This document shows positions 40,198 to 56,424 of a stretch of 64,000 nt of DNA, one piece after another; position 1 is the first letter of the stretch; each line of letters opens with the position of its first letter. The position numbers and the translations under genes are program-made. Location: positions 806,001 through 870,000 of the forward strand of contig JASCOH010000001.1 of the NCBI GenBank assembly GCA_029959295.1. The letters are read 5' to 3'. The notes below the pieces were generated by a model. The model did not search any database. It was not told the DNA's origin and was given only the letters and a program-made list of their open reading frames with translations. The DNA comes from Flavobacteriaceae bacterium PS02334. GTDB taxonomy: Bacteria > Bacteroidota > Bacteroidia > Flavobacteriales > Flavobacteriaceae.

Positions 40198-43100
40198 CTA
40201 GTAAATTATTTTTTTAGCAATTTTAGCACCTTCTGCATTTTGAACTTGAACAATAAAAATCTGCTCAGATGAAGGAAGACTGTTAATTACAGTTTGTGTA
40301 TTATTCACCTTTTTATTTTCATAAACAATTCTTCCTTGCAAATCAATTACTCTCACTTGGTCGATTGTTTCTTTCCCTGCGTTTATAAAAATGGATTTAT
40401 CTTTTTTGTAAACTATTACTGCTTCTGCACTCCAAGAAGGATTTTCTACGCCAAGCGGTTCTAATTTATATACGATTTCGAATCTGTCATTAAACGTTCC
40501 GATATTTGAAGCAAAAGAATATCCAGACGATTTCAAGTCATGAACTACATTCAAAAGATTATCTTTCAAATAAATGTTTTGGCTGTCAAACAAACCATCA
40601 ACCTGGTCAATCGAGATTGATAAATTTCCGGCAGTTGTAGCAATATAACCTAATTGAACTGCGTCATTTTCTTGAAAAGGCATAGAACGACCTTGGATTG
40701 CTAGTTTTTCATCTGCTACAATTGAATATAAAATAGCCGCATTTTCTCCGTAAATCTTTCCGTCAAAATCTCTATCCAAATCATTTGTTGCTGATTTTAA
40801 ATAACCGACAAGCGCTTGATTAAAAATACCATCTGCGTTTTGAAGATTTAACCAAAAACGATGTCTCTCTAATGGCGTATTTTCAGATGAATTTCCCTGT
40901 CTGTAAAATTGATTATTTCCGGAACCAGCACGCATATAATTCTTGAAAACTGCATTTGCATTTCCTATACCTGAAGCTCCTTCTACAAAAAAAGATTGCC
41001 CTGAAGCGATTATTCCTGTCGGCATCATTGCGTTAGGACTAGTTGCTTTTACTGGTCCTGTTAAGTTCCATTTTGCATAATCACCTTCTGCATAAGAACC
41101 CGTTGTGGCATTTGGCAAAGTAGCGTGCGTCCACAAATAAACCGTTCCCCCGATTGCCGCTTTATTTGTAGGATTTCCCAAGAATAAATTAACATCTAAG
41201 CCAGAAGGATAAGGATTTCCGATAAGATTTGATTTCCCAGCTCCTTTTGCAACCTGAATAGTGATTTCGCCTGTATTTGGCGTTCCTGACATAGTTGCCG
41301 TATAAGTCGCAGGAACAGTCAGCGAATAAGTTTGCGGCGCTCTCACGATATATCCTTTTGCCTTTACCATCTCTGTTGAGTTTGGAACGCTCACCCAGTT
41401 ATTTATTGCAGTATCAAACTTATAATATTTGTCTGCTAATGTTGCAGGAGACAAATCGTGCAATGTTAGTGGCGCAACTGGCGAAGACCAATAAGTGTAA
41501 TCATAGCGCCTGATGGGCTGTGTTGTTCTGATAACTGAAATTTTTCCGGTGTTTACAGCAGCATTATTTATTTGAACCAAGCTTGCTGAGTTATTGAATA
41601 TCAAGCTTGCTGCGGGTGCTACTGCTACTTGATTTTGAATTGTCATTGTGTGATTTGAAAGCATGGTTACGGCGCCACTATTAACAGTACAGCTGCATCC
41701 AGATATATTTCCTGTTGAAGTATAATTTCCACTGAAAACTATGTTTTTATCTGCGGTTGGCGCTCCTCCAATCCATGTTAAGCCATCCCATTCTGATGTT
41801 CCTGTTCCAACTGTTAATGTTGCTGGAATAGATATTACAGAACCGTGAATATTGCTAACTACTACAGAATAAGAAGCCAGATCAGATGGATTTGAAGGAC
41901 TTATAATTGTATAGGAAGAAGAAGTTGCTCCTGTTATATTGATATTATTTTTTTTCCATTGGTAAGTAAGGTCAGGACCAGTAGCCGTAACGCTAAAAGT
42001 TATAGAAGAAGTACTGCCTGAACAAATTACTGCGGAAACTGGATTTTCAATAATTTCTGGAACGCTGATTAAAAATGAATTAGCATTGTAAGCAATAAAT
42101 GCAGGATCGCTATTCCCGCCCGGCATTAATTTGAACTTGTCAATAGATGCATAATTTGCAGCCGTGATTCCAAATTCTGAGAATTTAAAAGCAATTAAAC
42201 GAATTTCCCTTGTTGTATTTGAATCTGCATTTCCACTCGGAACTGCATTTTCATAAGGAATATTGTTTGGCAAAGTGAAAAGGTCTAAACTATACGTTCC
42301 GACATGAGAAATCGCACTTAAGTCAGCACTGATAGGATTTCCTACGATATTTCCATTGACATCTACGAAAGAATATACATCAGTAACACTAGTCGGAGCT
42401 GCTGTTTGTGTAATCAAAACATCCGGCTCGTTATCATTAATTGTTGAAGGCACGATATTGCTGACTTTATAAGCCATTACCATACTGCTAGTTACGTTGG
42501 TTACACCAGTTCCTAAATCAAGACCGTTAATTCCGTCAATCAAGACATCTCTTACCGTCAAGCCTGCAACTGCTGGCGAAAGATAATTAGCTGCAGTGCT
42601 ATTTCCATCAACTTTCGAACCTAGAGCAATATAATTTGATGAAGATGTTCCTGTATTTCCTGTAATTCCATCTGTTGAAAAAGCCTTGAAAACACGAGGT
42701 GTGAAAACATCAGAATGAGATGTAAGCGATGCGTCGTTTACACCAGTAGAATAAAGGGTACCGTTGTAAGTCAAAGCAACTAAATTATGTCGATTATCAG
42801 GCAAGGTTGTGTTTCTGGCGCTTGATGCCGATGACCAATAGCCTTGAAAATCAGTCACAACTCTTGTAATTGCTGCTGTTGATGAAGTGTTTGAAGGCGA
42901 AACATAAACAATTGAACCTGTAGCAGTTGCAACAACTGAACCGTTTGTAACCGTTACGCTTCCGCTTGAACCGGTAGCTACAAAAACTTTAAGCTGCGTG
43001 GCCGACCAACTGCTTACCGAAACTGTTGTTCCTCCTAATTTCACTACTGAAGATGCTGTAAAGCCAGTTCCGTTAATAATAACCGCTGTACCTTTTGTAA

Positions 43101-43224
43101 CCACGGATGGCGAAAAGGAAGAGATTGTTTGAGCGAAAGAAGCTACTGTAAAAAACATTGAAACGAAAAGAGCAATCAGGCTTGCAATTTTCCTATTCTG
43201 TAATGGGGATTTAGAAGATTTCAT
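40198..43224 (-). CDS. IPT/TIG-domain secreted protein with T9SS type C sorting domain
   Basis: A 1008-residue exported protein. Signal peptide about 1-32 (LIALFVSMFFTVASFAQ). An IPT/TIG beta-sandwich follows (about 35-110: ISSFSPSVVTKGTAVIINGT), then a ~280-residue region without recognised homology, an Ig-like domain (about 395-475: YQWKKNNINITGATSSSY), and from about 480 the shared module: WIGGAPTADKNIVFSG, YDYTYWSSPVAP, AKGYIVRAPQTYS, NLIGNPYPSGLD, DRDFDGKIYGENA. The end, VIVYKKDKSIFINAG to IAKKIIY, is a type C T9SS signal as in Flavobacterium chitinase ChiA. It is the smallest of three neighbouring paralogs. Role is presumed surface adhesion; no catalytic motif was seen. Confidence 0.88.
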   Translation of the reverse strand: MKSSKSPLQNRKIASLIALFVSMFFTVASFAQTISSFSPSVVTKGTAVIINGTGFTASSVVKLGGTTVSVSSWSATQLKVFVATGSSGSVTVTNGSVVATATGSIVYVSPSNTSSTAAITRVVTDFQGYWSSASSARNTTLPDNRHNLVALTYNGTLYSTGVNDASLTSHSDVFTPRVFKAFSTDGITGNTGTSSSNYIALGSKVDGNSTAANYLSPAVAGLTVRDVLIDGINGLDLGTGVTNVTSSMVMAYKVSNIVPSTINDNEPDVLITQTAAPTSVTDVYSFVDVNGNIVGNPISADLSAISHVGTYSLDLFTLPNNIPYENAVPSGNADSNTTREIRLIAFKFSEFGITAANYASIDKFKLMPGGNSDPAFIAYNANSFLISVPEIIENPVSAVICSGSTSSITFSVTATGPDLTYQWKKNNINITGATSSSYTIISPSNPSDLASYSVVVSNIHGSVISIPATLTVGTGTSEWDGLTWIGGAPTADKNIVFSGNYTSTGNISGCSCTVNSGAVTMLSNHTMTIQNQVAVAPAASLIFNNSASLVQINNAAVNTGKISVIRTTQPIRRYDYTYWSSPVAPLTLHDLSPATLADKYYKFDTAINNWVSVPNSTEMVKAKGYIVRAPQTYSLTVPATYTATMSGTPNTGEITIQVAKGAGKSNLIGNPYPSGLDVNLFLGNPTNKAAIGGTVYLWTHATLPNATTGSYAEGDYAKWNLTGPVKATSPNAMMPTGIIASGQSFFVEGASGIGNANAVFKNYMRAGSGNNQFYRQGNSSENTPLERHRFWLNLQNADGIFNQALVGYLKSATNDLDRDFDGKIYGENAAILYSIVADEKLAIQGRSMPFQENDAVQLGYIATTAGNLSISIDQVDGLFDSQNIYLKDNLLNVVHDLKSSGYSFASNIGTFNDRFEIVYKLEPLGVENPSWSAEAVIVYKKDKSIFINAGKETIDQVRVIDLQGRIVYENKKVNNTQTVINSLPSSEQIFIVQVQNAEGAKIAKKIIY

Positions 43225-43494: not shown

Positions 43495-46400
43495 TCAGTA
43501 AACCACTTTTTTAGAAACTGTATTTCCATCAAGCAAAACAACTTGAACAATTAATACTTGTTCCGCCGGTGGCAGATTTTTAATAACTGCATCTGTTTTG
43601 TTGATATTTTTATTTTCGTAAATCATTCTTCCTTGAATATCAAAAACCCTTAATTGGCTTATTGATGCAAGTCCGGCGTTTATAAAAATTTCTTTATCCT
43701 TCTTATAAATCACAATACTATTTGGATCAAAATTTGGATTATTAACTCCAAGTGTTTCCTGTCTGTATACGATTTCAAACCTATTATCAAAAGTTCCAAC
43801 AGCCGAAGTAAAACTATAAGGAGCATTTTTAATATCGTGAATTGTGTTCAGCAACTTGTCTTTTAAATAAACTGCTTGAGTATCAAAAAGTCCGTCAAAA
43901 TGATCTAATGTAATTTTATAATTTCCTGCAACCGTTGTTTTGTATCCCATTGGCACTACATCATTCAAATCAAAAGGAAGACTTTTTCCTTGAATTGTCA
44001 ACAATTTATCTGGAATTATAGAATAAAAAGTCGCCGTATTTCCTCCAAATAATTCTCCATCATAACCTCTGTCATAATCATTTGTCGCACCTTGAACATA
44101 TGCTATCAAAGCTTGATTAAATCCGCCTTGAGAATTTTCAAGATTTAGCCAAAAGCGGTGCCTTTCAATTTCTGTATTTCTGAAAAACTGATTGTTGTTG
44201 GCTCCAATTCTCATCGTATTATTAAAAGTAGCTGTTCCGCTTCCGTTTGAAATTCCTTTTACAAAGAAAGATTGTCCAGCTGCGACAAAACCTGTTGGCT
44301 CAACTGAACTTCCAGTTGCCGGTGCGGTAGCAGTCCCTCCAGAGAAATTGTAAGTTGCATAATCACTATCTGTATAGGAATAATTTCCTCCTGCATTTGG
44401 CACAGAACTAACTCCTGTAAAATTAGTCCACAAATAAATAGTTCCTTCCAAATCTGGATTTATACTGCTTGCTAGGAATAAATTTGCATCTAAAGCAGAA
44501 GGATAAGGATTTCCTATCAAATTAAACTTTTCAGCCGTAGTGCTTCCTTGGGTTGCGATTGTTATCAGTCCATTATTTGGAACACCATTAAATGTTGCAT
44601 TATAAGACGCTGCCGTTCCTGTTATTGGATAAGTTTGCGGCGCTCTCACGATATAACCTTTTGCCTTTTCCATCGTCACGGTTCCGTTGTCATGTAAAGT
44701 CCAGCTTTGACCTGCACTATCCCAGCTATAATATTTATCATGCAAAGTTGCTGGCGAGAGTGCACTTAAAGTTTGGGCCGTTGCAAAAACTGGCGATGCC
44801 CAATAAGTGTAGCTGTAGCGCAACATATTTCCAGAATTTCTTTTGTAAATAATATTCCCTGAATTTATGCTTGGATTTTCATTTACCTGAACTAAACTTG
44901 CATTGTTTTCAAAAGTAATCTTCCCTCCTGCATTTACATCTACAGCATCTTGTACGGTTAGAACTTTATCAGAATTTACCAAAAGTTCTCCCAAAGATTT
45001 TATCGCTAGATTTTTACCCTGTGCCACATCAGAAATTATTGGTTTCACAGTAGTACTTGGAATAATGATACAGTCGTCTGTTGATGGAACTCCAACTGGC
45101 GACCAGTTATTTGCATTTTCCCAAGCTGTGTTTGCGCTACCGTTCCAAACTTTTGATTTGTTAGTAACATTTATAGTTTTTGTAATTGTACAGCCATTTG
45201 TTAGCTGGGTAGTAACATCTATATTGAAAGATGGTGTTGCCAACAAAGCTATGTTTGGCTGTATGTAAACAATATCTTCTGCACTTCCAGGAACATATGG
45301 TATGGTACCTAATGCATCTGTATAAACTGAAATATCAGTTGAACCTGACCAAGTAAATGATGCTACTAATGGCTTTGTTCCATATAACTGTATATCATCT
45401 ACAGCAACGCCATCATACCAAGATGAGGCATAATACCTGATTCTAAATTGCAGGGTTGCTATGTTTATGAAAGAATTCATATTGACAGTAATTTGCTGGA
45501 AGTTTCCAGGAGTACCTAAATCAGTACTATAATTAGCATTTGCCACGGGTGTCCATGTTGTACCGTTAGTTGAAGTTTCAACTGCTAAATATTCTGAAGC
45601 TGGTGCCACAGTATTTATATTGTACCTTGAAAAATAAACTCTGAACTTTAATGTCAAGTCAGTGTAGTTTTGTGTATTTACAGCTGAAGTTAACGCCAAG
45701 CCATGATCAATGACATAATATGTTGCGGGCGGTCCTACTGTTTTAGGTCCTACATCAGAAGTTGAAAATGCAAATTTATTTACTCCATATCCGGATGATA
45801 TTGATGGAGTCCATACGTCAGCACCATCTGTTGGGATAAAAGGACTAGATTTTCTCTCCCATCTTGAAATTTGATTAATAGTTCCCCCATTTCCAACAAT
45901 ATTCTGATTACCAAAAAGCCCTAGTCCACTACCCTCAAAATTTTCGTTTACTAAATAAACAGTTTCATTATCACTTGCCGCACTCAGCATAATTGGATTT
46001 TTATCTCCACAAGTAATAGGAGTCGCTGGTGAAAAATTCACATCAGGAACTTCCTTCATATTTGCAACAACAGGTTTACGAACTAAAGATTCACAAGTTC
46101 CATTTGATGCTGTAACATAGAATGTTGTGGTCGCAGAAATTGTTGGGCTGTAAGTATTGCTAGCTGAATTTTGCAGTGGAGCGCCACCAGTCTGGGCTGC
46201 ATACCACAAATATGTTGTAGTACCAGTAGAACCTGTTGCCGTAAGAGATACATTTCCTGGCCCGCATCGAGTTCCATCAGTAACTGTGGCAATAGTGGCA
46301 AAACAATTTGCAATTACTGTAAACAAATAATCTTCTGCCTCGCCATAATACAAATCGTCATCTCCAAAATAAGTTGTTTCCTCAAAATCTACACAGCTAT

Positions 46401-49400
46401 CAAAAGATGGATAAAAAATTTCATCATCTAAATCAATAATGCCATTGCTATTATCGTCATAATAATTTACGCCATTTCTAATCCTTATTCTGTAATTACC
46501 TGGTGGAGTTGCAGCTGGAATTATAAAGCCAAAAGTAGTATCTGAAGTACCAGCAACTGAATCATAAATCTGCTCACCAGAGTCGCTAAAATCTCCATCA
46601 TTATTCCAGTCGACCCATGCATAAATTCTTGTCTGTGTGTTTCCATTAACATATACGTTTACTCCTTCGCCTTGAGCTTGTATACTTTTCGGAAGCGCAG
46701 TAAAATCTTGATAGCCGCTTGGAGAATTAGAATATGATGAGTTTAAATTAGACACGTCATTTAACGTACCAATAAATTGTACGTCATCAATATATGCTTC
46801 AGGAGCATAGTCTGTGTGCGCCGTACAGTAAGTCGGAGTCACATTACATGTTCTTGAAATTGTAAATGTTCCTGTATTTGCCGCTGTACCGCTTGATCCA
46901 TAATAAGATATATAAACATAGTAGACTGTTCCCAATACTGGTGTAAAGCTATAGGTTTCGGTTCCTCCGCCAGTAGCGACATCGACAGTTGTCACATTGG
47001 TTAAAGCACCACATGAACCGCTTGCGATAGAAAGTTTATGATCAAATCCTGAACCTGCAGTTGTTGATATTAAATTTAGAGTTCCATCTCCAACAAAAGT
47101 ATACCATACTCCATAAGTACTGGCATTCCATGCTGTCACTGATAAAACTTCTGAAACAGAACCAATAGTTGTACCCGCCAATGCGACAGTTGCACATGGC
47201 AAAGCTGTGGCATTAGAACAAGCATCGTTTGCCGGAGGAGGCGATAAAGTTGTAAAACTTGTATAAGCACTCCAAGCACTTCTGTCAGATCCACAGCCCA
47301 CTGTGCGGACATAAATATAATAAGTTGTAGCATTTGACAATCCAGAAATGGCAACTGGGCTTGAAGCTGCAGCCACTACTGGCGTCACTCCCGCGCCAGG
47401 AGTTGTTGCCGAAGTGGAAACATAATATTCATATCCTTTGTTGGTTCCTTTTAAAGGAGCTGTAAAAGTTACATTCGCACTTGTCAGTGTAACAGTATTG
47501 TTAGCAACTGCCGTAGGCGGATTAACTGCTACCGTTGCATTTGTAAGATCAAGGTATAAATTACATGTTTTGTCGTTATTTCCAAAAGTTCCATCACAGT
47601 TTCCACCGGTAAAATATTGATTTCTGAAAATCATATTCACTCCATCAACATTTACGCCTGCCGGAATACAGAAATAATCTGCAAGTTTTATTGTCGAACT
47701 ATAGATTCCTCCGCTTAAAGTAAATGGAATCAGCGAAGAAAGAGTGTTTATATTTCCTTGGGCATAATTAAAATCAGTACCGCTTACAATACGTATTCCT
47801 GCATAGGCATAAATAGTTGTTTCAGTACCTGTATAGAAAATATTTGAGGCATCAAAATCCTTGAAATTGATAGTAATGACATCATTAATTGTCTTTGGTG
47901 TAGAATTAGTGTAAACTTCATAGTTAACGCTTAATTTTCCATTCTTTTGAGAGGTACCGTTCCAAAATCCGCTCGGATAGCCTCCATATCTATATGGCCC
48001 ACCGTTAAGCTGGTAACGGAAAGAGTAGTAAGTATTTGCTTGCCCGATTATTGGATTGATGGTTCCTTTCCATTCATCATTATTTCCAACGTTTGTATTA
48101 AAAGTCGCTGCAGTCCAAGTACCCGTCCAGCCAGCAGATGAAGGGTCAACATCAGTTGCATTAGTTGAATACCAAACTAGCAAACCTGTAGCTGCTCCAG
48201 CAGGATCAGTAACACCCGGCTCATAAGCCTGTCCATAAATATCTACAGATGTTCCAGTTGTTGTAGTCGAAACTCCTGGCGATTGAATATTGGCATAGTC
48301 AACAGCATCTGTTGGAGATAAAGTTACGCTTATATCGTCAACATATAAAAAAGCTTGGTCAATTGCAGAGAAAGCATTAAAACCTATGTAAAAAACTCCT
48401 GTAGAAGTAGGTGTAAAATCAACTGTTACAGATTGGAATGCTGCTGTCTGGTTAATAGCCGTATTCGTATAAAGTACATTTGTCATTGAACCGCTTGTAG
48501 CCGAGGTTCCATAAGCTACTTTCAACTTTTCTGTGAAAGTAGTTCCAGAAGCATTATACTTAAAAATTAGCCTATACGAAGTTCCATTTATAAGATTTAA
48601 GCCTTGTGAATAAAACCATGCATTTGCTGCGTTAGTACTATTAAACTGATAAGTCAAAACTTTTGTAGTATTTCCAAAACCTGGATTAGCTGAAGTTTTC
48701 CAGTCGTTTCCAGTTCCTGCATTTTGTATAGAGGTACATGACGGTATTGCTGGAACTGTTACTGATTCAAAGTCTTGAGTGTATGTTACATTTGTGGAAC
48801 CGCATTGCGTTACAAATGTGTAAGGCCCCGCCCAAGTACTGTTGCCATTAGCCCCACCACATGCAGAACGCACATAATACTGATAAGAAGTATTTGCTGT
48901 CAAACCTATAATAGCACTATTTGTAGTTGTACTAGTGCTTGTCGCTACTGTTCCTGCATTCGGAACCGCCAAAGGCGTTGCAACACTGCCCGTTCCATAA
49001 TAAATATCATAAGAAGCCGGAACTACGGCTGGTGCACTCCAAGAAAAAGTTGCCGTCGTAGCAACTAGAGCAGTAGTTGTTAATGCGGTTGGTGGCAGGC
49101 AAGAAGGAATTTGCTCTACAGTAAAATTGTCAATAAAGAAATCTATATCAGCGCTTCCGTTAGAAGCACCTTCAAAAGCTCTAAATGCAAAACGAACAGT
49201 CTGTCCGCTATAAGCTGCCAAAGTCGTAGCGTCCAATTGTCCTAAATTTGAAGGAACAGAAGAACTATTGTATGTTTTGAGTACAGTCCAGTTGGTGGTT
49301 CCAGTTGTAGAAACTAGCAATTCGACAAAATCGTCTGCTTCCCATGCTGTAGTTGGTGCAGTTGTAGCAGCAAATTGTGTTGCTCCTACATTATATTTTA

Positions 49401-51351
49401 CTTGATAATCATTCGCTGGGATTGTATACTGTGGAGATATTATCCATTCATAACCTGTAGCGGCGTCGATGTTCATTTTAGCAGATAAATTGACGGGAGT
49501 GGTTGCGTTTAAATAGTCATCTGATCCCCAATCACTGACAGTTGCGCCTGTAGTTGCAGGACCTGTTGCCAAGGAAACTCCAGCGTCCCCTTCAATCCAG
49601 CAAGTACTTGGCAAATAAGTTGCAAAGGACTCAACACTTGGAAAAACTGTGATTGCCGCACAAGCCGTAACCACTGTAATCGTACTGCTATTTGCGCTTG
49701 TACAAGCCGTTGCATTAGTAGCCCTTATTCTATAATAATAAGGAGTTGCAGGATTTAATCCTGTGACTGCTTGAGAAATTGTACTGCCACCTGAAACGAC
49801 AAGCCCGTTGTACCCAGCGACAAAACTTGCAAAAGTGTTCACTGTAGAAACATCTAGAAGATAACCCGTTGCTCCAGTTACCACTGCCCAGTTGGCTGTA
49901 AAACCAGAGCTTGTAATTGACGATCCTGCGCTTGCTGTTGGTGTAGCAAGGCAAGTGTAAGTGTTAGCTGTCAATGGCGCTGCGGTAAAATATTTTGGAC
50001 CGCCTGAACAGGAAGTGTTATTAAAACTAAATACAAAATAATAGTACTGCGTATTTGCTGTAAGCCCTGTTTGCGTAAAAGTGGTCGCAGTCCCAGATTG
50101 AACTACGGTTCCTCCGCCCAATGTGGCCCCTGCTACATAGGTATTGGTGTCAGATGGTGTTGCCGATAAAGTAGAAGAAGTACTTCTTACTACTAAATAG
50201 CCACTTGCCGCAGGCGATGCCGCGGTAAAACTACCTGATAATGTAGTCGCTGTGACTGATGTTAGGTTTAAAACTGTTGGTTGTGCTGTTGGCGCGACGC
50301 AGGCTAACAATGAAGTCTGGAACAAACCCTTTCCGTTAGTTGTATTTGCAGTTGTAACTGTGGAATAATTATTTGCGGAAGTACCGCTACATAGACCTTC
50401 TACGCTATAAACATAATAAGTTCCTATTGCAAGACCAGTAATATTATAAGACGAGCTTCCCGCCGCAACTGGTGTTGGTGTTGCCCATGAGGCGGCTGTA
50501 TAATCTTCATCTACTTTCCTCCATCTTACCCTATATCCCGAAGCATAAGTTCCACTATTCGTCCAAGAAATTGTTGCTGAAGATGCGGTTATTGCAGATG
50601 CAGTTGCACTCACTGTTACCAATGCACAACTGCTTGGCGTCCATTTTAATGTGGTTCCGGAAGCAGGTTTTACTGTCGAAGTTACCGGAACGGCGTCAGC
50701 TTGAAGAGAACCATTAATGAGGCTGTTCCAATTATTTGTATAAGTATATCCGGTTAAAGCTGAATTTGTTAATGTTACATTATTATAAACAGCAGGAGCG
50801 CTTTTCAATCCAACTTCACTAATGCCAGTAGTTAATACTGTATGGGAAGTTGTCATTGCTCCATATACAATTTCTACAACATTTGTAGTTTCATTTAGCC
50901 TAATTTGAAAATTAAGATTTTCGCTTAGCAGGCCAGAAACATATCTTGCAGCTCCGCTCCATTCTACAACGAAAATACGATTTGGCGAAGAACCTAAAGT
51001 TTCATATTTTACTGTAGAGTTTAAATCTCTCCCTAATGCAGAAATAGATGTACTATAGGCACCTCCAGTCGCCGAAATAGGAGTATATCCTCCCGAACCG
51101 GGGGTGGTTGCGTTTCCTAAAGTAAGAAATCCATTTGTGCTGATTCTTAAACTAGTGTACCCCGTTCCAGCGTAAGTAAATGTAAATGGGATTGTAACAG
51201 CAGTGCCGGTCACAGCATCATCAGTCGATGTATAAGCTGTTGTTGCAGTTCCTCCCAATGCAGTATAAGTTCCTGCCGTCTGGCTAAAGTTGTAAGTAGC
51301 CGCCGTCTGCCCATATCCCAAATTTCCCAGCAATATCAAAAAAAAAAGCAA
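43495..51351 (-). CDS. Giant T9SS type C protein with fibronectin-III, choice-of-anchor and GEVED domains; start probably frameshifted
   Basis: The open frame encodes 2618 residues from a TTG at 51351, giving MLFFLILLGNLGYGQ. The natural start is probably the ATG at 51370 (or in-frame 51433): it reads MKKSALVAFF, but a T10 tract then shifts it out of frame; one T fewer would yield a perfect signal peptide. Domains in order: beta-sandwich (16-240), FN3-like units (about 240-570), choice-of-anchor J-like (570-740), FN3 and another anchor J (740-1070), unique region (1070-1330), FN3, pre-peptidase-like (about 1400-1515), GEVED (1517-1680), Ig-like, anchor J (1797-1997), then the shared ~555-residue module and type C sorting end (KDKEIFINAG to SKKVVY). 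Likely surface adhesin; its last ~1450 residues parallel the neighbouring 1479-residue protein. Confidence 0.85.
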   Translation of the reverse strand: MLFFLILLGNLGYGQTAATYNFSQTAGTYTALGGTATTAYTSTDDAVTGTAVTIPFTFTYAGTGYTSLRISTNGFLTLGNATTPGSGGYTPISATGGAYSTSISALGRDLNSTVKYETLGSSPNRIFVVEWSGAARYVSGLLSENLNFQIRLNETTNVVEIVYGAMTTSHTVLTTGISEVGLKSAPAVYNNVTLTNSALTGYTYTNNWNSLINGSLQADAVPVTSTVKPASGTTLKWTPSSCALVTVSATASAITASSATISWTNSGTYASGYRVRWRKVDEDYTAASWATPTPVAAGSSSYNITGLAIGTYYVYSVEGLCSGTSANNYSTVTTANTTNGKGLFQTSLLACVAPTAQPTVLNLTSVTATTLSGSFTAASPAASGYLVVRSTSSTLSATPSDTNTYVAGATLGGGTVVQSGTATTFTQTGLTANTQYYYFVFSFNNTSCSGGPKYFTAAPLTANTYTCLATPTASAGSSITSSGFTANWAVVTGATGYLLDVSTVNTFASFVAGYNGLVVSGGSTISQAVTGLNPATPYYYRIRATNATACTSANSSTITVVTACAAITVFPSVESFATYLPSTCWIEGDAGVSLATGPATTGATVSDWGSDDYLNATTPVNLSAKMNIDAATGYEWIISPQYTIPANDYQVKYNVGATQFAATTAPTTAWEADDFVELLVSTTGTTNWTVLKTYNSSSVPSNLGQLDATTLAAYSGQTVRFAFRAFEGASNGSADIDFFIDNFTVEQIPSCLPPTALTTTALVATTATFSWSAPAVVPASYDIYYGTGSVATPLAVPNAGTVATSTSTTTNSAIIGLTANTSYQYYVRSACGGANGNSTWAGPYTFVTQCGSTNVTYTQDFESVTVPAIPSCTSIQNAGTGNDWKTSANPGFGNTTKVLTYQFNSTNAANAWFYSQGLNLINGTSYRLIFKYNASGTTFTEKLKVAYGTSATSGSMTNVLYTNTAINQTAAFQSVTVDFTPTSTGVFYIGFNAFSAIDQAFLYVDDISVTLSPTDAVDYANIQSPGVSTTTTGTSVDIYGQAYEPGVTDPAGAATGLLVWYSTNATDVDPSSAGWTGTWTAATFNTNVGNNDEWKGTINPIIGQANTYYSFRYQLNGGPYRYGGYPSGFWNGTSQKNGKLSVNYEVYTNSTPKTINDVITINFKDFDASNIFYTGTETTIYAYAGIRIVSGTDFNYAQGNINTLSSLIPFTLSGGIYSSTIKLADYFCIPAGVNVDGVNMIFRNQYFTGGNCDGTFGNNDKTCNLYLDLTNATVAVNPPTAVANNTVTLTSANVTFTAPLKGTNKGYEYYVSTSATTPGAGVTPVVAAASSPVAISGLSNATTYYIYVRTVGCGSDRSAWSAYTSFTTLSPPPANDACSNATALPCATVALAGTTIGSVSEVLSVTAWNASTYGVWYTFVGDGTLNLISTTAGSGFDHKLSIASGSCGALTNVTTVDVATGGGTETYSFTPVLGTVYYVYISYYGSSGTAANTGTFTISRTCNVTPTYCTAHTDYAPEAYIDDVQFIGTLNDVSNLNSSYSNSPSGYQDFTALPKSIQAQGEGVNVYVNGNTQTRIYAWVDWNNDGDFSDSGEQIYDSVAGTSDTTFGFIIPAATPPGNYRIRIRNGVNYYDDNSNGIIDLDDEIFYPSFDSCVDFEETTYFGDDDLYYGEAEDYLFTVIANCFATIATVTDGTRCGPGNVSLTATGSTGTTTYLWYAAQTGGAPLQNSASNTYSPTISATTTFYVTASNGTCESLVRKPVVANMKEVPDVNFSPATPITCGDKNPIMLSAASDNETVYLVNENFEGSGLGLFGNQNIVGNGGTINQISRWERKSSPFIPTDGADVWTPSISSGYGVNKFAFSTSDVGPKTVGPPATYYVIDHGLALTSAVNTQNYTDLTLKFRVYFSRYNINTVAPASEYLAVETSTNGTTWTPVANANYSTDLGTPGNFQQITVNMNSFINIATLQFRIRYYASSWYDGVAVDDIQLYGTKPLVASFTWSGSTDISVYTDALGTIPYVPGSAEDIVYIQPNIALLATPSFNIDVTTQLTNGCTITKTINVTNKSKVWNGSANTAWENANNWSPVGVPSTDDCIIIPSTTVKPIISDVAQGKNLAIKSLGELLVNSDKVLTVQDAVDVNAGGKITFENNASLVQVNENPSINSGNIIYKRNSGNMLRYSYTYWASPVFATAQTLSALSPATLHDKYYSWDSAGQSWTLHDNGTVTMEKAKGYIVRAPQTYPITGTAASYNATFNGVPNNGLITIATQGSTTAEKFNLIGNPYPSALDANLFLASSINPDLEGTIYLWTNFTGVSSVPNAGGNYSYTDSDYATYNFSGGTATAPATGSSVEPTGFVAAGQSFFVKGISNGSGTATFNNTMRIGANNNQFFRNTEIERHRFWLNLENSQGGFNQALIAYVQGATNDYDRGYDGELFGGNTATFYSIIPDKLLTIQGKSLPFDLNDVVPMGYKTTVAGNYKITLDHFDGLFDTQAVYLKDKLLNTIHDIKNAPYSFTSAVGTFDNRFEIVYRQETLGVNNPNFDPNSIVIYKKDKEIFINAGLASISQLRVFDIQGRMIYENKNINKTDAVIKNLPPAEQVLIVQVVLLDGNTVSKKVVY
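51338..51347 (-). other. T10 homopolymer inside signal-peptide codons
   Basis: Ten A on the plus strand, so ten T in the coding strand of the giant T9SS gene. It lies in codons 8-11 counted from the ATG at 51370. With ten T the ATG frame runs to MKKSALVAFFFDIAGKFG and is out of frame with the protein; with nine (or twelve) it joins perfectly. Confidence 0.85.
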
Positions 51352-51370
51352 CTAATGCTGATTTTTTCAT

Positions 51371-51923
51371 ATCGCCAATAATTGAAAAGCAATCCTTAAA
51401 TGTTTTCTCCCCTAAAAAGTAATCTTTAAGCATACTGTTAAATTTATATTAAAAATCAAATATAAATTAATATCAATAGGACCTATTTTTGATTTTTCAA
51501 AATATTAATATTTTATTCAATTTATTCTAATATATAGCAGCATTATACTAATTATTTTGTTTTTTATATATTAAAAAAATCAACAAATACAGGATGAAAG
51601 ATATTTTTAGTAAGTAAAAATGTACATGTTTTAGGAGAGGAAAATATTTTAATTTTTTAATAAATCAAGTAGTATTTTATGCAGTAAAAACTTTCAATTA
51701 TGTAAATTAGGTGCTATTTTTTGTAAAAATCAGACTACACAAAAATTTTAATATCGTCGTGAAAAAATAAAAATCTGTTTTGTAAGCTTTATTAGTTATA
51801 AAATTTCATTTATTAAAAAAAACGCATTGTATTATCACAAATAAATATTCAAAAACAGCAATATATACTTACAAATCAATACTTTATAGAATTTAAAAAC
51901 CAAAACAATAAAGTAAAAGCGTA
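51371..51923. other. AT-rich spacer with promoter of the giant T9SS gene
   Basis: About 550 bp, very AT-rich. On the minus strand TATATTTG at 51457-51464 fits the -7 consensus and would give a ~90-base leader to the ATG at 51370, or a ~25-base leader to the in-frame ATG at 51433. The rest holds no recognised gene, repeat or RNA. Confidence 0.55.
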
Positions 51924-51984: not shown

Positions 51985-54900
51985 TTAATACAGTATTTTC
52001 CTGAAAATTTGTGATCCATTTTGAGTTGTAACCTGAACTATCAAAACTTGATCTACCGAAGGCAGACCGTTAATTATGGCTTTGTCATTCTCAACTTTAT
52101 CATTGCTGTAAAGCAATCTTCCTTGCAGATCCACTACTTTTAATTTGTGAATCACTTCGTCTGTTGCTTCCACAACTATGGATTCTGATTTTTTATAAAC
52201 CAAAACAGTACCCGATTTCAGCAAAGGATTGTCTACACCTAGCGTTTCTAGCCTATATACAATTTCCAGCCTGTCATTAAAAGTACCCATTTGTGTTGTG
52301 AATGAATAAGCAGATTCATTTAGGTCATGAACCGTTCCTAATAAATTATCCTTGATATATATGCTTTTATTCTTAAAGAATTCATCCACATGATCAATGC
52401 TTATAAATAAAGGGCCGGCAACATCAGACTGATAGCCGATTTTGACTACATCAGCATCATCAAAAGGAAAATCTCTGGCTTGAATCGTCATTTTTTTATC
52501 TGATTCAACAGTATAGAAAGACAGGGCATTATGGCTAAAAAGCTCTCCGTCATACCCTCTATCCCATCCATTTGTAGCGCCTTGTACATAGCCCACGAGC
52601 ATTTGGTTAAAAGCACCTTGATGGTCGCTTAAGTTTAGCCACAGCCTGCTTTTTTCAGTATTTTCAGAGGTTCTGAAAAACTCATTATTAAATCCTTTGA
52701 CGCGCATTGAATTTAAAAACTGTACGGGAAGATTAGCCAAACCGCGTACAAAAAAAGCTTGCCCTGAAGCAATATGCCCGGTTGGCACCGTGCTGTTTAA
52801 ATTATTGCTCGGCGTTGGATCATTTGGGTCATCAATAGCCGCTACGCCAACGCCTCCGGTAAGATTGTAAGTAGCATAATCATAGGTAGAATAGTTAATT
52901 GCACCGGTTCCGACAATAAATCTGCTCGGAGACGTATTGTGCGTCCAAAGATAAATAGTTCCGTCAATAGCACTGGTATTGCTTACATTTGACAAAAATG
53001 AATTGGCGCTGATTGCCGAAGGATAGGGGTTTCCGATAAGATTCCACTGATAATTCGCCACTACGGGGCTTGAATTTCCCAAAACATTAATAGCTACTGT
53101 TCCATTATTTGGAACACCGCTAAATTCAGCAGAATAAACACTCGGCGCAGTTATTGAAAATGTCTGCGGCGCCCTTACTATATATCCTTTGGCATTTGCC
53201 ATCGACACATTTCCGGAGGCATGCAGAAGCCAAGATTGCGTCGTCGGATTCCAACTGTAATATTTGTCAGCCAAAGTCAGTGGCGATAATGTGCTTAACA
53301 TTTGCGATGCGACCGGCGTTGACCAATAAGTGTAGTCATAGCGCCTCATTGGCTTGGCATTTACTCGCGCCTTGATATTTCCTGTGTTCGTGGTATTATT
53401 TACTTGAACAAGCGAACCTGTACTTTCCAAAATTAAATTACCGCCCGTGTCTACTTTGACTGCTTCTGTGATTGTAAGCGTATTTGTCGGATTTACTGTT
53501 AAATTTCCTGTAGATTTTACATTTAGATTTCTACCGTAAGCTTCAAAAGAAGTTCCTGAAATAATTGAATTATCTACAACAATTATGCAATTGGAAGCAG
53601 TTGGAACCCCGGATGGTTTCCAGCTTGCGGCCGTATTCCAGTTTGTGGATGCGCCTGACCAAATTCTGGTATTATTAGTTACAACAACATTTTTGGTAGC
53701 AATGCAGCCACTAGATAAAGTTGCGTTGGCCGTAATGGTAAAGCTTGCATTTTCTAATTGTGCCAATGTAGGCTTTATATAAACTGTCGTCGCTGACATT
53801 GTAACAGGATTATAAGAAATTGTCGCCAAGGCATCGGTGAAAACCGCAAGCGGGGTGCCACTTGTGAATTTAAAAGACGTACTTAAAGGCTTATTTCCAT
53901 ACAGCCTAACATTGTCAATCGCAACACCGTCTCGAAATACGCCGTAGTACCTTATTCTTATACGCAAATTTGCTCTGTTGATGTAAGCAGTCAAATTTAT
54001 AGACATATTTTGAAATCGGGTTCCAATTCCAACATCAGAAGTATATTTTATATTTTCAGTCCAATTCGTTCCTCCATCAGTTGAAACATCGACAGCTACA
54101 TAATCATTTGCGGTATCAGTGCCGTCTGCCAGATAATGCGAATAATACATTTTAAAGGTCAGTGTAAGATCGAGATAGCCTGTACTATTTACTATTGGCG
54201 AAACCAAGCCGTTATTTACAGTATAATTTCCTACGTCAGAAGTCGCCATTACAAATTTATTGCTTCCAAAAGCCGAAGAAACGGCTGGAAACCAAACTTG
54301 TCCAGCAGGAATATAAGTGCTTGTTCTGGTCTGCCAGGAAGTCGCGGCATCGACAGCAGGATTGCTGGTATAGATTTGATTTGCAAAAACGCCCAATCCG
54401 CTTTCAAAATGTTCATTAATTAGATTTATTTCATCAATATCACCTGCAATAGACAAAGAAATTATATTGTCTTCACCGCAAACCACGGGAGTCGCTGGCG
54501 TAAAAACCATATCTGGAACAGGACTTCTTACCGCCGTTATTGGTGTCCTAACTAAAGATTCGCACCCATTATAAGCTGTCACATAATAAATAGTGGTCGT
54601 GGAAATTGTTGGCGTTGTCCATGATCCCGTTGTGGTAGTTGCCACTGGCGCTCCTCCAGTTGAGGCAGTATACCACCTATATTCTGTCACGCCGCCTGAA
54701 CTTGTAACTGATAAAGTGACTGGCCCGTTGCCACACGTTTCTCCATCGGTTACGCCTGTTATAAGTGCGGAACAACTTGCTACAACTGTAAAAGCATAAT
54801 CTTCAGCTTCTCCATATCGGTTCGAAACTAAAATTACGCCCCCAAAAGCTTCACAAGAGTTAAAATCATGGTCATAATTATCACCTGTCAAAATTACATT

Positions 54901-56424
54901 TTCTTTATAATTTCTGACTCTAATTCGATAATCGCCTGGCGAAATAGTTGCCGGAACGATAAATCCAAAGGTAGTTGAGGTAATACCAATTCCAGAATTA
55001 TAGACCGTTTCACCCGCATCATCAAAATCGCCATCCTTGTTCCAATCTACCCAGGCTTTTACTTTTGAAAGTCCGTTAGTTTCCACATATACATTCATTC
55101 CTTCTCCTTTCGCTTGGATGCTTTTAGTGTTAGCGGTAAAGTTTTGGTACCCCGTAGCTCCGTAAGAAGTACTCAGATTGCTTACATCGTTTAAAGTTCC
55201 TAAAAATCTAAAATTATTTATAAATAGCGTACTCGGAGTTGTAGTAGTCGAAGGCGTACAATAAGTGATCGCCGGAGTCGTGAGGCAGACTGTAAAAGCG
55301 CCTTGGTTTTCGCCCGATCCTGCGCTGTGAATTCTTACATAATATGTTGCTCCGTTTGTGAGCCCTGTGAATGTCCCCGTTTCTGCCGCGCTTCCTGTTG
55401 TTGCATTGACACATCCCATAGAAACCAAACTTGCGCAAGTGCCGCTATATCCCTGAAACACCACGTCAACCATTGTTGTAGGCGTAACTGTAATAACATG
55501 TGAAGCCTGAGTAGCCACAAAACTATACCAAACATCATCGTCAGCATTACCGGCACAAGCTGTTGCTCCTGCTGTTGCTCCCACACTCGTTCCATTAGTT
55601 GATGAAGTACAAGTTGTTCCCGGGTTTACCGTCAAAGCCGTAGCTCCTAAACAGGTATCATTTGAAGGAGCCGCAAATGCCGAATGCACCAAAGAAATAT
55701 TATCAACGGCTATCGGTGGCGAAGTTCCTGCACTTGCATTATTAGTCCATTCAAAAATCAATCGTATGCTAGAACCCGCATAACCTTCTGGAATTGAAAA
55801 AGTGGCTGTCGTCCAAGTTGCTTGCGCGCTGTAATTTGTACTCCCAACCTGTCGTGTTCCTCCCGGCAGGGCTGTCGTGTTTGCCGCAACTGCAGTTCCA
55901 TAAACTGGAACAGCTGCTGATGATGGCGCCACAAATATTCGCATTTTATCATTTGCTGTTTCTCCAACGCCAATCCAGCTAAAACTCAAGACAATATTAT
56001 TTTGCCCTGCCGGAATAGCAACCGTTCTATAAAGATGCGTTACTCTCGCAGTAGTCAAAGTATACGAATGAGGCGGTGGCGTTCCTGCTGTATTATTTGT
56101 AATGTAAGCTGCGCGTGTTCCTGTAAAACCTGCTGTCGCCCCTGTTCCCACAATCCATTGATTCTGAGTAGCCGTTCCAACTGAGGCTGACCAATTGTTA
56201 GTGGCTAATGTAGTTCCTGTTTCAAAACCACCATCACCAGTCGGCGAAATCAGGACAGTTTGAGAATAACCATCAAATGTGAATAGCAGGAAAACTAGAA
56301 TAATAAGTTTTACTTCTAAAACTCCTGATAAAAGGGCATTAATAATAGATTTTAAAAGTAATTTTTTTTTGCATATCAATAGATTCTCATTACTATTTGA
56401 TAAAGACTTGGAATTTTTTATCAT
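51985..56424 (-). CDS. T9SS type C protein with GEVED and choice-of-anchor domains
   Basis: A 1479-residue exported protein, paralogous to the C-terminal half of its giant neighbour. The N-terminus is odd: about 33 polar residues with an A9-encoded KKK precede the hydrophobic core KLIILVFLLFTFDGYSQ (about 39-55). Domains in order: MAM/lectin-like (about 56-250, GGFETG to AVDNISLV), pre-peptidase-like (255-385, DDVWYSFVATQ), GEVED (395-545, KAWVDWNKDGDFDDAGE, RYGEAEDYAF), Ig-like (550-640), anchor J-like (665-850), then the shared module from about 915 and a type C end (SESIVVEATD to FRKILY). It is likely a surface adhesin exported through T9SS. Confidence 0.87.
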   Translation of the reverse strand: MIKNSKSLSNSNENLLICKKKLLLKSIINALLSGVLEVKLIILVFLLFTFDGYSQTVLISPTGDGGFETGTTLATNNWSASVGTATQNQWIVGTGATAGFTGTRAAYITNNTAGTPPPHSYTLTTARVTHLYRTVAIPAGQNNIVLSFSWIGVGETANDKMRIFVAPSSAAVPVYGTAVAANTTALPGGTRQVGSTNYSAQATWTTATFSIPEGYAGSSIRLIFEWTNNASAGTSPPIAVDNISLVHSAFAAPSNDTCLGATALTVNPGTTCTSSTNGTSVGATAGATACAGNADDDVWYSFVATQASHVITVTPTTMVDVVFQGYSGTCASLVSMGCVNATTGSAAETGTFTGLTNGATYYVRIHSAGSGENQGAFTVCLTTPAITYCTPSTTTTPSTLFINNFRFLGTLNDVSNLSTSYGATGYQNFTANTKSIQAKGEGMNVYVETNGLSKVKAWVDWNKDGDFDDAGETVYNSGIGITSTTFGFIVPATISPGDYRIRVRNYKENVILTGDNYDHDFNSCEAFGGVILVSNRYGEAEDYAFTVVASCSALITGVTDGETCGNGPVTLSVTSSGGVTEYRWYTASTGGAPVATTTTGSWTTPTISTTTIYYVTAYNGCESLVRTPITAVRSPVPDMVFTPATPVVCGEDNIISLSIAGDIDEINLINEHFESGLGVFANQIYTSNPAVDAATSWQTRTSTYIPAGQVWFPAVSSAFGSNKFVMATSDVGNYTVNNGLVSPIVNSTGYLDLTLTFKMYYSHYLADGTDTANDYVAVDVSTDGGTNWTENIKYTSDVGIGTRFQNMSINLTAYINRANLRIRIRYYGVFRDGVAIDNVRLYGNKPLSTSFKFTSGTPLAVFTDALATISYNPVTMSATTVYIKPTLAQLENASFTITANATLSSGCIATKNVVVTNNTRIWSGASTNWNTAASWKPSGVPTASNCIIVVDNSIISGTSFEAYGRNLNVKSTGNLTVNPTNTLTITEAVKVDTGGNLILESTGSLVQVNNTTNTGNIKARVNAKPMRRYDYTYWSTPVASQMLSTLSPLTLADKYYSWNPTTQSWLLHASGNVSMANAKGYIVRAPQTFSITAPSVYSAEFSGVPNNGTVAINVLGNSSPVVANYQWNLIGNPYPSAISANSFLSNVSNTSAIDGTIYLWTHNTSPSRFIVGTGAINYSTYDYATYNLTGGVGVAAIDDPNDPTPSNNLNSTVPTGHIASGQAFFVRGLANLPVQFLNSMRVKGFNNEFFRTSENTEKSRLWLNLSDHQGAFNQMLVGYVQGATNGWDRGYDGELFSHNALSFYTVESDKKMTIQARDFPFDDADVVKIGYQSDVAGPLFISIDHVDEFFKNKSIYIKDNLLGTVHDLNESAYSFTTQMGTFNDRLEIVYRLETLGVDNPLLKSGTVLVYKKSESIVVEATDEVIHKLKVVDLQGRLLYSNDKVENDKAIINGLPSVDQVLIVQVTTQNGSQIFRKILY
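56362..56370 (-). other. A9 homopolymer near the start of the 1479-residue gene
   Basis: Nine T on the plus strand; in the coding strand AAAAAAAAA encodes Lys20-Lys22 ahead of the signal-peptide core. One base gained or lost would abolish translation of the rest. The frame is intact in this assembly. Confidence 0.8.

Follow-up and report, generated by a model that had tools for sequence, protein, structure and literature searches.

A ten-T run separates the signal peptide from the reading frame of a giant T9SS protein in a Flavobacteriaceae bacterium: a possible leaky, reversible frameshift

Slipped-strand switching at A/T runs near the 5' ends of genes is well known, and the examples outlined in PMC2831843 include the poly-T run of flhA in C. 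coli and the poly-A runs of inlA in L. monocytogenes and swrA in B. subtilis. Runs of this kind can also alter the reading frame at the level of the transcript. The dnaX gene of T. thermophilus slips at nine A's, and conservation was the test used there for programmed slippage (PMC1088944); a two-ORF dnaX with ten A's has been attributed to transcriptional realignment (PMC3711429). For the E. coli RNA polymerase, which favours poly-T, at least seven T's are reported to be needed, and a one-base excess at T8 was rescued to about 10% (PMC6260861). A literature search for phase variation or slipped strands in Flavobacterium, Flavobacteriaceae and Bacteroidetes gave no Flavobacterium case among the matches listed. 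Ornithobacterium hominis is a member of the Flavobacteriia. Its adhesins with fibronectin-binding domains have been described as having a putative phase-variation mechanism (PMC13183296).

The locus considered here lies in a stretch of 64,000 nucleotides (the window) from Flavobacteriaceae bacterium PS02334, whose genome is given as 4.585 Mb, 69 contigs and 100% complete; the genus is probably Flavobacterium. An unbroken frame of 2618 codons (43495..51351, minus strand) contains fn3, GEVED and Ig_7 domains (Pfam) and ends in a T9SS type C sorting domain (NCBIfam NF033708) that scores 49.5 bits against a curated cut-off of 40. This frame contains a single stop, its own end, in 2619 codons, whereas 172 and 209 stops fall in the two alternative frames, and its GC content by codon position (0.43, 0.51 and 0.24 at positions one, two and three) has the pattern expected of a coding frame. 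The product is predicted to be a giant, T9SS-exported multidomain protein that would be surface-bound or secreted; the names ‘adhesin’ and ‘antigen’ given to it in the original prediction derive from domain content only. It is flanked by two related genes on the same strand. Upstream lies a paralogue of 1479 aa (51985..56424) with GEVED and Ig_7 domains and a sub-threshold match to the type C sorting domain, which is 47% identical to the giant protein across the C-terminal half; on the other side is a further T9SS type C protein of 1008 aa (40198..43224), in which no run of seven or more was found in the first 300 bases.

The frame of the giant gene changes at a homopolymer of ten T's (51338..51347, minus strand), directly preceded by ATGAAAAAATCAGCATTAGTTGC and located inside the stretch that codes for the signal peptide. 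Two ATG codons lie upstream of the run, at 51368..51370 and 51431..51433 (both minus strand). They share one frame and both lose the body frame at T10, and so the choice between them leaves the break unchanged. As the sequence is given, the frame from ATG 51370 closes after 28 codons, and the body frame opens first at a TTG (51349..51351, minus strand) that is immediately preceded by a TAG, so that a start inside the signal peptide is possible. It had been proposed that the T10 run places both ATG codons out of frame with the body and that the open frame can only begin at this TTG. Recomputation of the frames gave the same result on both points, and the reasoning about the signal peptide, together with the alternatives named (a switch, an assembly error or a TTG start), is judged to have been right. 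A change in the length of the run would shift the gene into or out of frame, as it does in SSR-mediated phase-variable loci, and the run joins two overlapping frames through at least nine A/T bases, as in programmed transcriptional slippage.

Runs of this length are uncommon in the surrounding DNA. The T10 run is the sole run of more than six bases in the 7,857-nt gene, where the next longest is six. The window holds one T10/A10 match, compared with a mean of 12 after dinucleotide shuffling, and six T9/A9 matches, two of which fall inside the T10 run itself, compared with a shuffled mean of 29. These counts suggest that long runs are avoided in the window and that the T10 run is an exception. 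As the body frame is intact across all 2618 codons, the loss of frame appears to be either recent or tolerated.

The reading preferred here, with a probability of about 0.47, is that a real, recent and in principle reversible slipped-strand indel of one base has occurred at the T10 run, leaving the gene OFF but leaky. The unusually long T run in the signal-peptide stretch is prone to one-base slippage, and a slipped-strand indel would have given the sequenced DNA a run length that divides signal peptide and body between two frames. By standard decoding the sequenced cell line would be OFF, and RNA polymerase slipping on U10 would, going by the E. coli data, bring a share of the transcripts back into the body frame. 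This is one of two leading readings. The other is that the run length is an assembly or base-calling error and that the gene is intact in the organism.

The context of the possible start codons was compared with the rules described for F. johnsoniae, in which A at -3 and at -6 is favoured (PMC6847099). ATG 51433 has A at both positions, ATG 51370 has G at both, and TTG 51351 has T at -3 and C at -6, which is poor; by these rules ATG 51433 is more likely to be the preferred start. Bacteroidetes promoters are described in the same source as carrying the -7 element TANNTTTG, and TATATTTG at 51457..51464 (minus strand) matches it. No -33 element was found at the usual spacing from this match and the window contains TANNTTTG 86 times, so the promoter match is weak; its position would place a transcript start about 18 or 19 bases ahead of ATG 51433, a weak assignment.

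Initiation at TTG 51351 would make the T10 run simply correct and would give a short signal peptide that lacks a basic N-region. This TTG is in the body frame, and two more T9SS-type genes of the same genome (L202 and L205) have no ATG ahead of the signal peptide and apparently start at TTG, which suggests that TTG initiation occurs in this organism. However, in addition to the poor initiation context, there is no lysine or arginine ahead of the hydrophobic core, and the N-regions of the homologues that were inspected by eye are longer and mostly contain basic residues. A TTG start is therefore the least probable of the readings considered.

The N-terminal domain was matched in 201 of 398 genomes of the genus (own genome included), with at most 48% identity outside the gene itself. 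In all 29 of the best homologues of this domain (32-46% identical, BLAST), the domain is immediately preceded by a segment that is open in the body frame and was judged by eye, without a predictor, to resemble a signal peptide. The longest T runs of these homologues in the stretch scanned have nine bases at most and none of the 29 is out of frame; neither the tract at the T10 position nor a split, two-frame arrangement is kept in any of them. No orthologue of the giant gene was found among the 398 genomes, comparison of the 5'-region DNA with the same genomes gave one short match of 69 bases only, and a search of genome contigs gave distant matches only. The domain search and the 5'-region search draw on essentially one sample of 398 genomes. 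The closest of 150 relatives, as ranked by ffh, has 84% identity.

The dnaX gene offers a comparison within the genus. Among the best 30 loci of 61 genomes (L050 / L244-L273), 28 have a stop soon after an A10 run at about codon 354 and a tau part that is open in another frame; one locus (L245) has A10 and reads through. The source genome's own dnaX has A11 and reads tau directly, whereas the other 29 loci in the sample all have A10. The frame change ahead of tau in 28 of 30 loci suggests that members of the genus probably slip at runs of ten as a matter of course. Taken with the slippage data from E. coli, this arrangement leads to the expectation that the T10 allele would leak full-length protein, of which transcriptional slippage would probably yield some. 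The ON/OFF scheme of the original prediction had not considered slippage of this kind, which would make the T10 state leaky and not OFF.

The dnaX arrangement also raises the idea that T10 is the normal state of the giant gene and that the full-length protein is made through transcriptional slippage, as has been proposed for tau of the two-ORF dnaX. The 28 A10 loci, the attribution of the ten-A dnaX to transcriptional realignment (PMC3711429) and the preference of the E. coli polymerase for poly-T (PMC6260861) are consistent with it. None of the 29 homologues is out of frame at the T10 position, however, and in PMC1088944 programmed slippage was judged by conservation; a normally slipping T10 is accordingly rated very improbable.

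The behaviour of long T runs at gene starts was surveyed across the genus by collecting, in 398 genomes, every ATGAAAAAA that has a run of T10 or longer no more than 30 bases after it, with T9 and T6 runs for comparison (T6 in 31 genomes). The T10-or-longer set comprises every one of the 48 distinct sites found in the 398 genomes; the T9 set comprises 30 given loci and 60 picked by eye among the matches listed, many terminator-like or early-stop ones being omitted, and the T6 set comprises 30 given loci and, from two genomes, 40 more chosen by eye. Sites where the frame after the run is shorter than 80 codons were left out (19 of 48 at T10 or longer, 34 of 89 at T9 and 9 of 73 at T6), as were those closed before the run (11, 5 and 3, respectively). 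L234 was among the sites closed ahead of the run, and L118 (T10), which is in frame at the run and broken further on, was placed in the class ‘none’. Three sites flagged by the script as out of frame (L330 and L348 at T9, L373 at T6) were rejected because their body frame extends open beyond the ATG in the upstream direction, and this ATG was consequently not taken as the gene start; with these three included, the raw share out of frame is 5 of 50 for T9 and 1 of 61 for T6. A reversed-pattern control also matched in many genomes, so the raw pattern is not evidence of enrichment.

At T10 or longer, 16 of the 18 sites with at least 80 codons after the run are in frame and two are out; with frames assigned at random, the chance of at least 16 being in frame is less than 1e-5. 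The corresponding figures are 45 in frame and three out at T9 (n=48) and 60 in frame and none out at T6 (n=60). Most long runs thus keep the frame and an occasional one breaks it, and loss of frame was seen only at long runs and at a modest rate (5 of 66 at T9 or more, 0 of 60 at T6; Fisher p = 0.059, which is marginal). The five out-of-frame starts are the giant gene itself and L096, L222, L235 and L358. These last four are signal-peptide-like starts in other members of the genus, with the frame broken at T9 or T10, and by eye they look like unrelated secreted or lipoprotein-like proteins, not specially adhesins.

An erroneous run length should be considered in the light of the other homopolymers of the same assembly, in which 38 distinct runs have ten bases or more and 210 have exactly nine. 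A scan for frame breaks covered the 38 longer runs and 28 of 30 fetched exact nines, 66 in all, and called for at least 100 open codons downstream of the run; the criterion was set on that side only, as requiring 100 open codons on both sides misses breaks near a gene start. Fourteen other runs (6 of the 38 and 8 of the 28 nines) lie inside a frame that begins with an ATG ahead of the run and continues across it, and the giant gene is the only convincing N-terminal break among the 66. Three flagged sites were judged by eye not to be breaks: at L080 a GTG can start the frame after the run, at L085 the signal-peptide ATG follows the run, and L081, on the strand opposite a gene pair, was read as the junction of two adjacent genes. 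A plus-strand pair at L173 was dismissed as an antisense artefact. An A11 run (L072, G000:C22, about 284365) was considered as a second homopolymer-split gene and rejected, as it marks the junction of two phage genes of a Mu-like prophage: the Mu portal gene ends just past the A11 and a Mu F-like frame begins nearby. The Mu F-like protein has a C-terminal match to the CdiA_C (contact-dependent inhibition) domain.

The fourteen pass-through runs and the single break argue against frequent or wholesale miscalling of homopolymers. A similarly low rate of gene starts put out of frame at T9 or T10 is seen in other members of the genus, whose genomes presumably come from separate sequencing projects, which also speaks against an error specific to this assembly, although those cases may be errors too. 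On the other side, the A11 of the source genome's own dnaX, where the other 29 sampled loci have A10, is a second one-base excess in the assembly and could betray an assembly error; the genome is a draft in 69 contigs, and the body of the giant gene is intact. An assembly or base-calling error is therefore a serious contender, rated at about one chance in three, below the reading of a real indel.

A further interpretation is that the run is a classical contingency locus, selected as an ON/OFF switch of a surface adhesin. The run lies at the very beginning of a gene for a surface protein and is that gene's only long run, and 5' poly-T switching is documented, for example in C. coli flhA (PMC2831843). 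The neighbouring paralogue has an A9 run (56362..56370, minus strand) in its N-region, where start codons lie in different frames: with A9, the body frame is shared by the ATG at 56424 but by neither of those at 56390 and 56374, and the run closely follows the ATG at 56374. The tract that had been noted for this sister gene does exist, but it is an A9, is in frame from ATG 56424 and lies upstream of the hydrophobic core. Against selection for switching, the survey found 16 of 18 gene starts with T10 or longer in frame, and a freely switching locus would be expected to be OFF more often, which lowers the phase-variation reading. The out-of-frame cases elsewhere appear by eye to be unrelated secreted or lipoprotein-like proteins, and the runs of the homologues do not exceed nine in the scanned part. 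Fifteen other N-terminal regions of the same genome, taken at estimated coordinates around T9SS-type and paralogous genes, have no run longer than eight, so there is no family-wide tract in the source genome. A selected switch is accordingly considered unlikely. The original prediction of an ON/OFF phase-variable surface antigen is thus retained as to the frame break and weakened as to the switch.

Combining the two forms of slippage, poly-T in the signal-peptide stretch of this giant T9SS cargo gene of an environmental Flavobacterium might act as a contingency switch and set ON and OFF states by slipped-strand change and a leak level by transcriptional slippage, resulting in graded surface display; this elaboration is speculative and improbable as it stands. 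For the preferred reading, a real one-base indel with a leaky product, the observations that count toward it are the intact body frame, the 29 homologues in frame, the restriction of frame loss to long runs, the 14 pass-through runs, the dnaX arrangement and the rescue described in E. coli. Those that count against it are the marginal p value, the picking by eye of part of the T9 and T6 sites, the A11 of dnaX and the apparent TTG starts elsewhere in the genome.

If the indel is real, the gene is a candidate example, in Flavobacterium, of a T9SS cargo that varies through a homopolymer. Genes with such runs may also be trimmed or given a wrong start by annotation pipelines, and the 5 of 66 gene starts out of frame at T9 or longer provide a modest base rate for the genus that is useful in weighing similar claims.

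The locus resembles flhA, inlA and swrA (as outlined in PMC2831843) in having an A/T homopolymer near the start, where gain or loss of a single base brings a stop a few dozen codons on and the rest of the gene is intact; it differs in being a T9SS cargo gene of a Flavobacterium-like bacterium that is known here from one sequence. With the two-ORF dnaX, which is present in the genus, it shares an A/T run of ten bases after which the remainder of the protein is encoded in a different frame, but in dnaX the run and the nearby stop are conserved, whereas the T10 of the giant gene is not conserved in its homologues. The adhesins of O. hominis are likewise multidomain proteins with suspected phase variation, and are set beside the giant protein by description only. 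Among T9SS type C (ChiA-type) cargo, the giant protein is typical in its fn3, GEVED and Ig_7 modules and in a sorting domain that exceeds the NF033708 cut-off, and it stands apart in that its putative N-terminal Sec signal peptide, read from either ATG, is out of frame in the given sequence.
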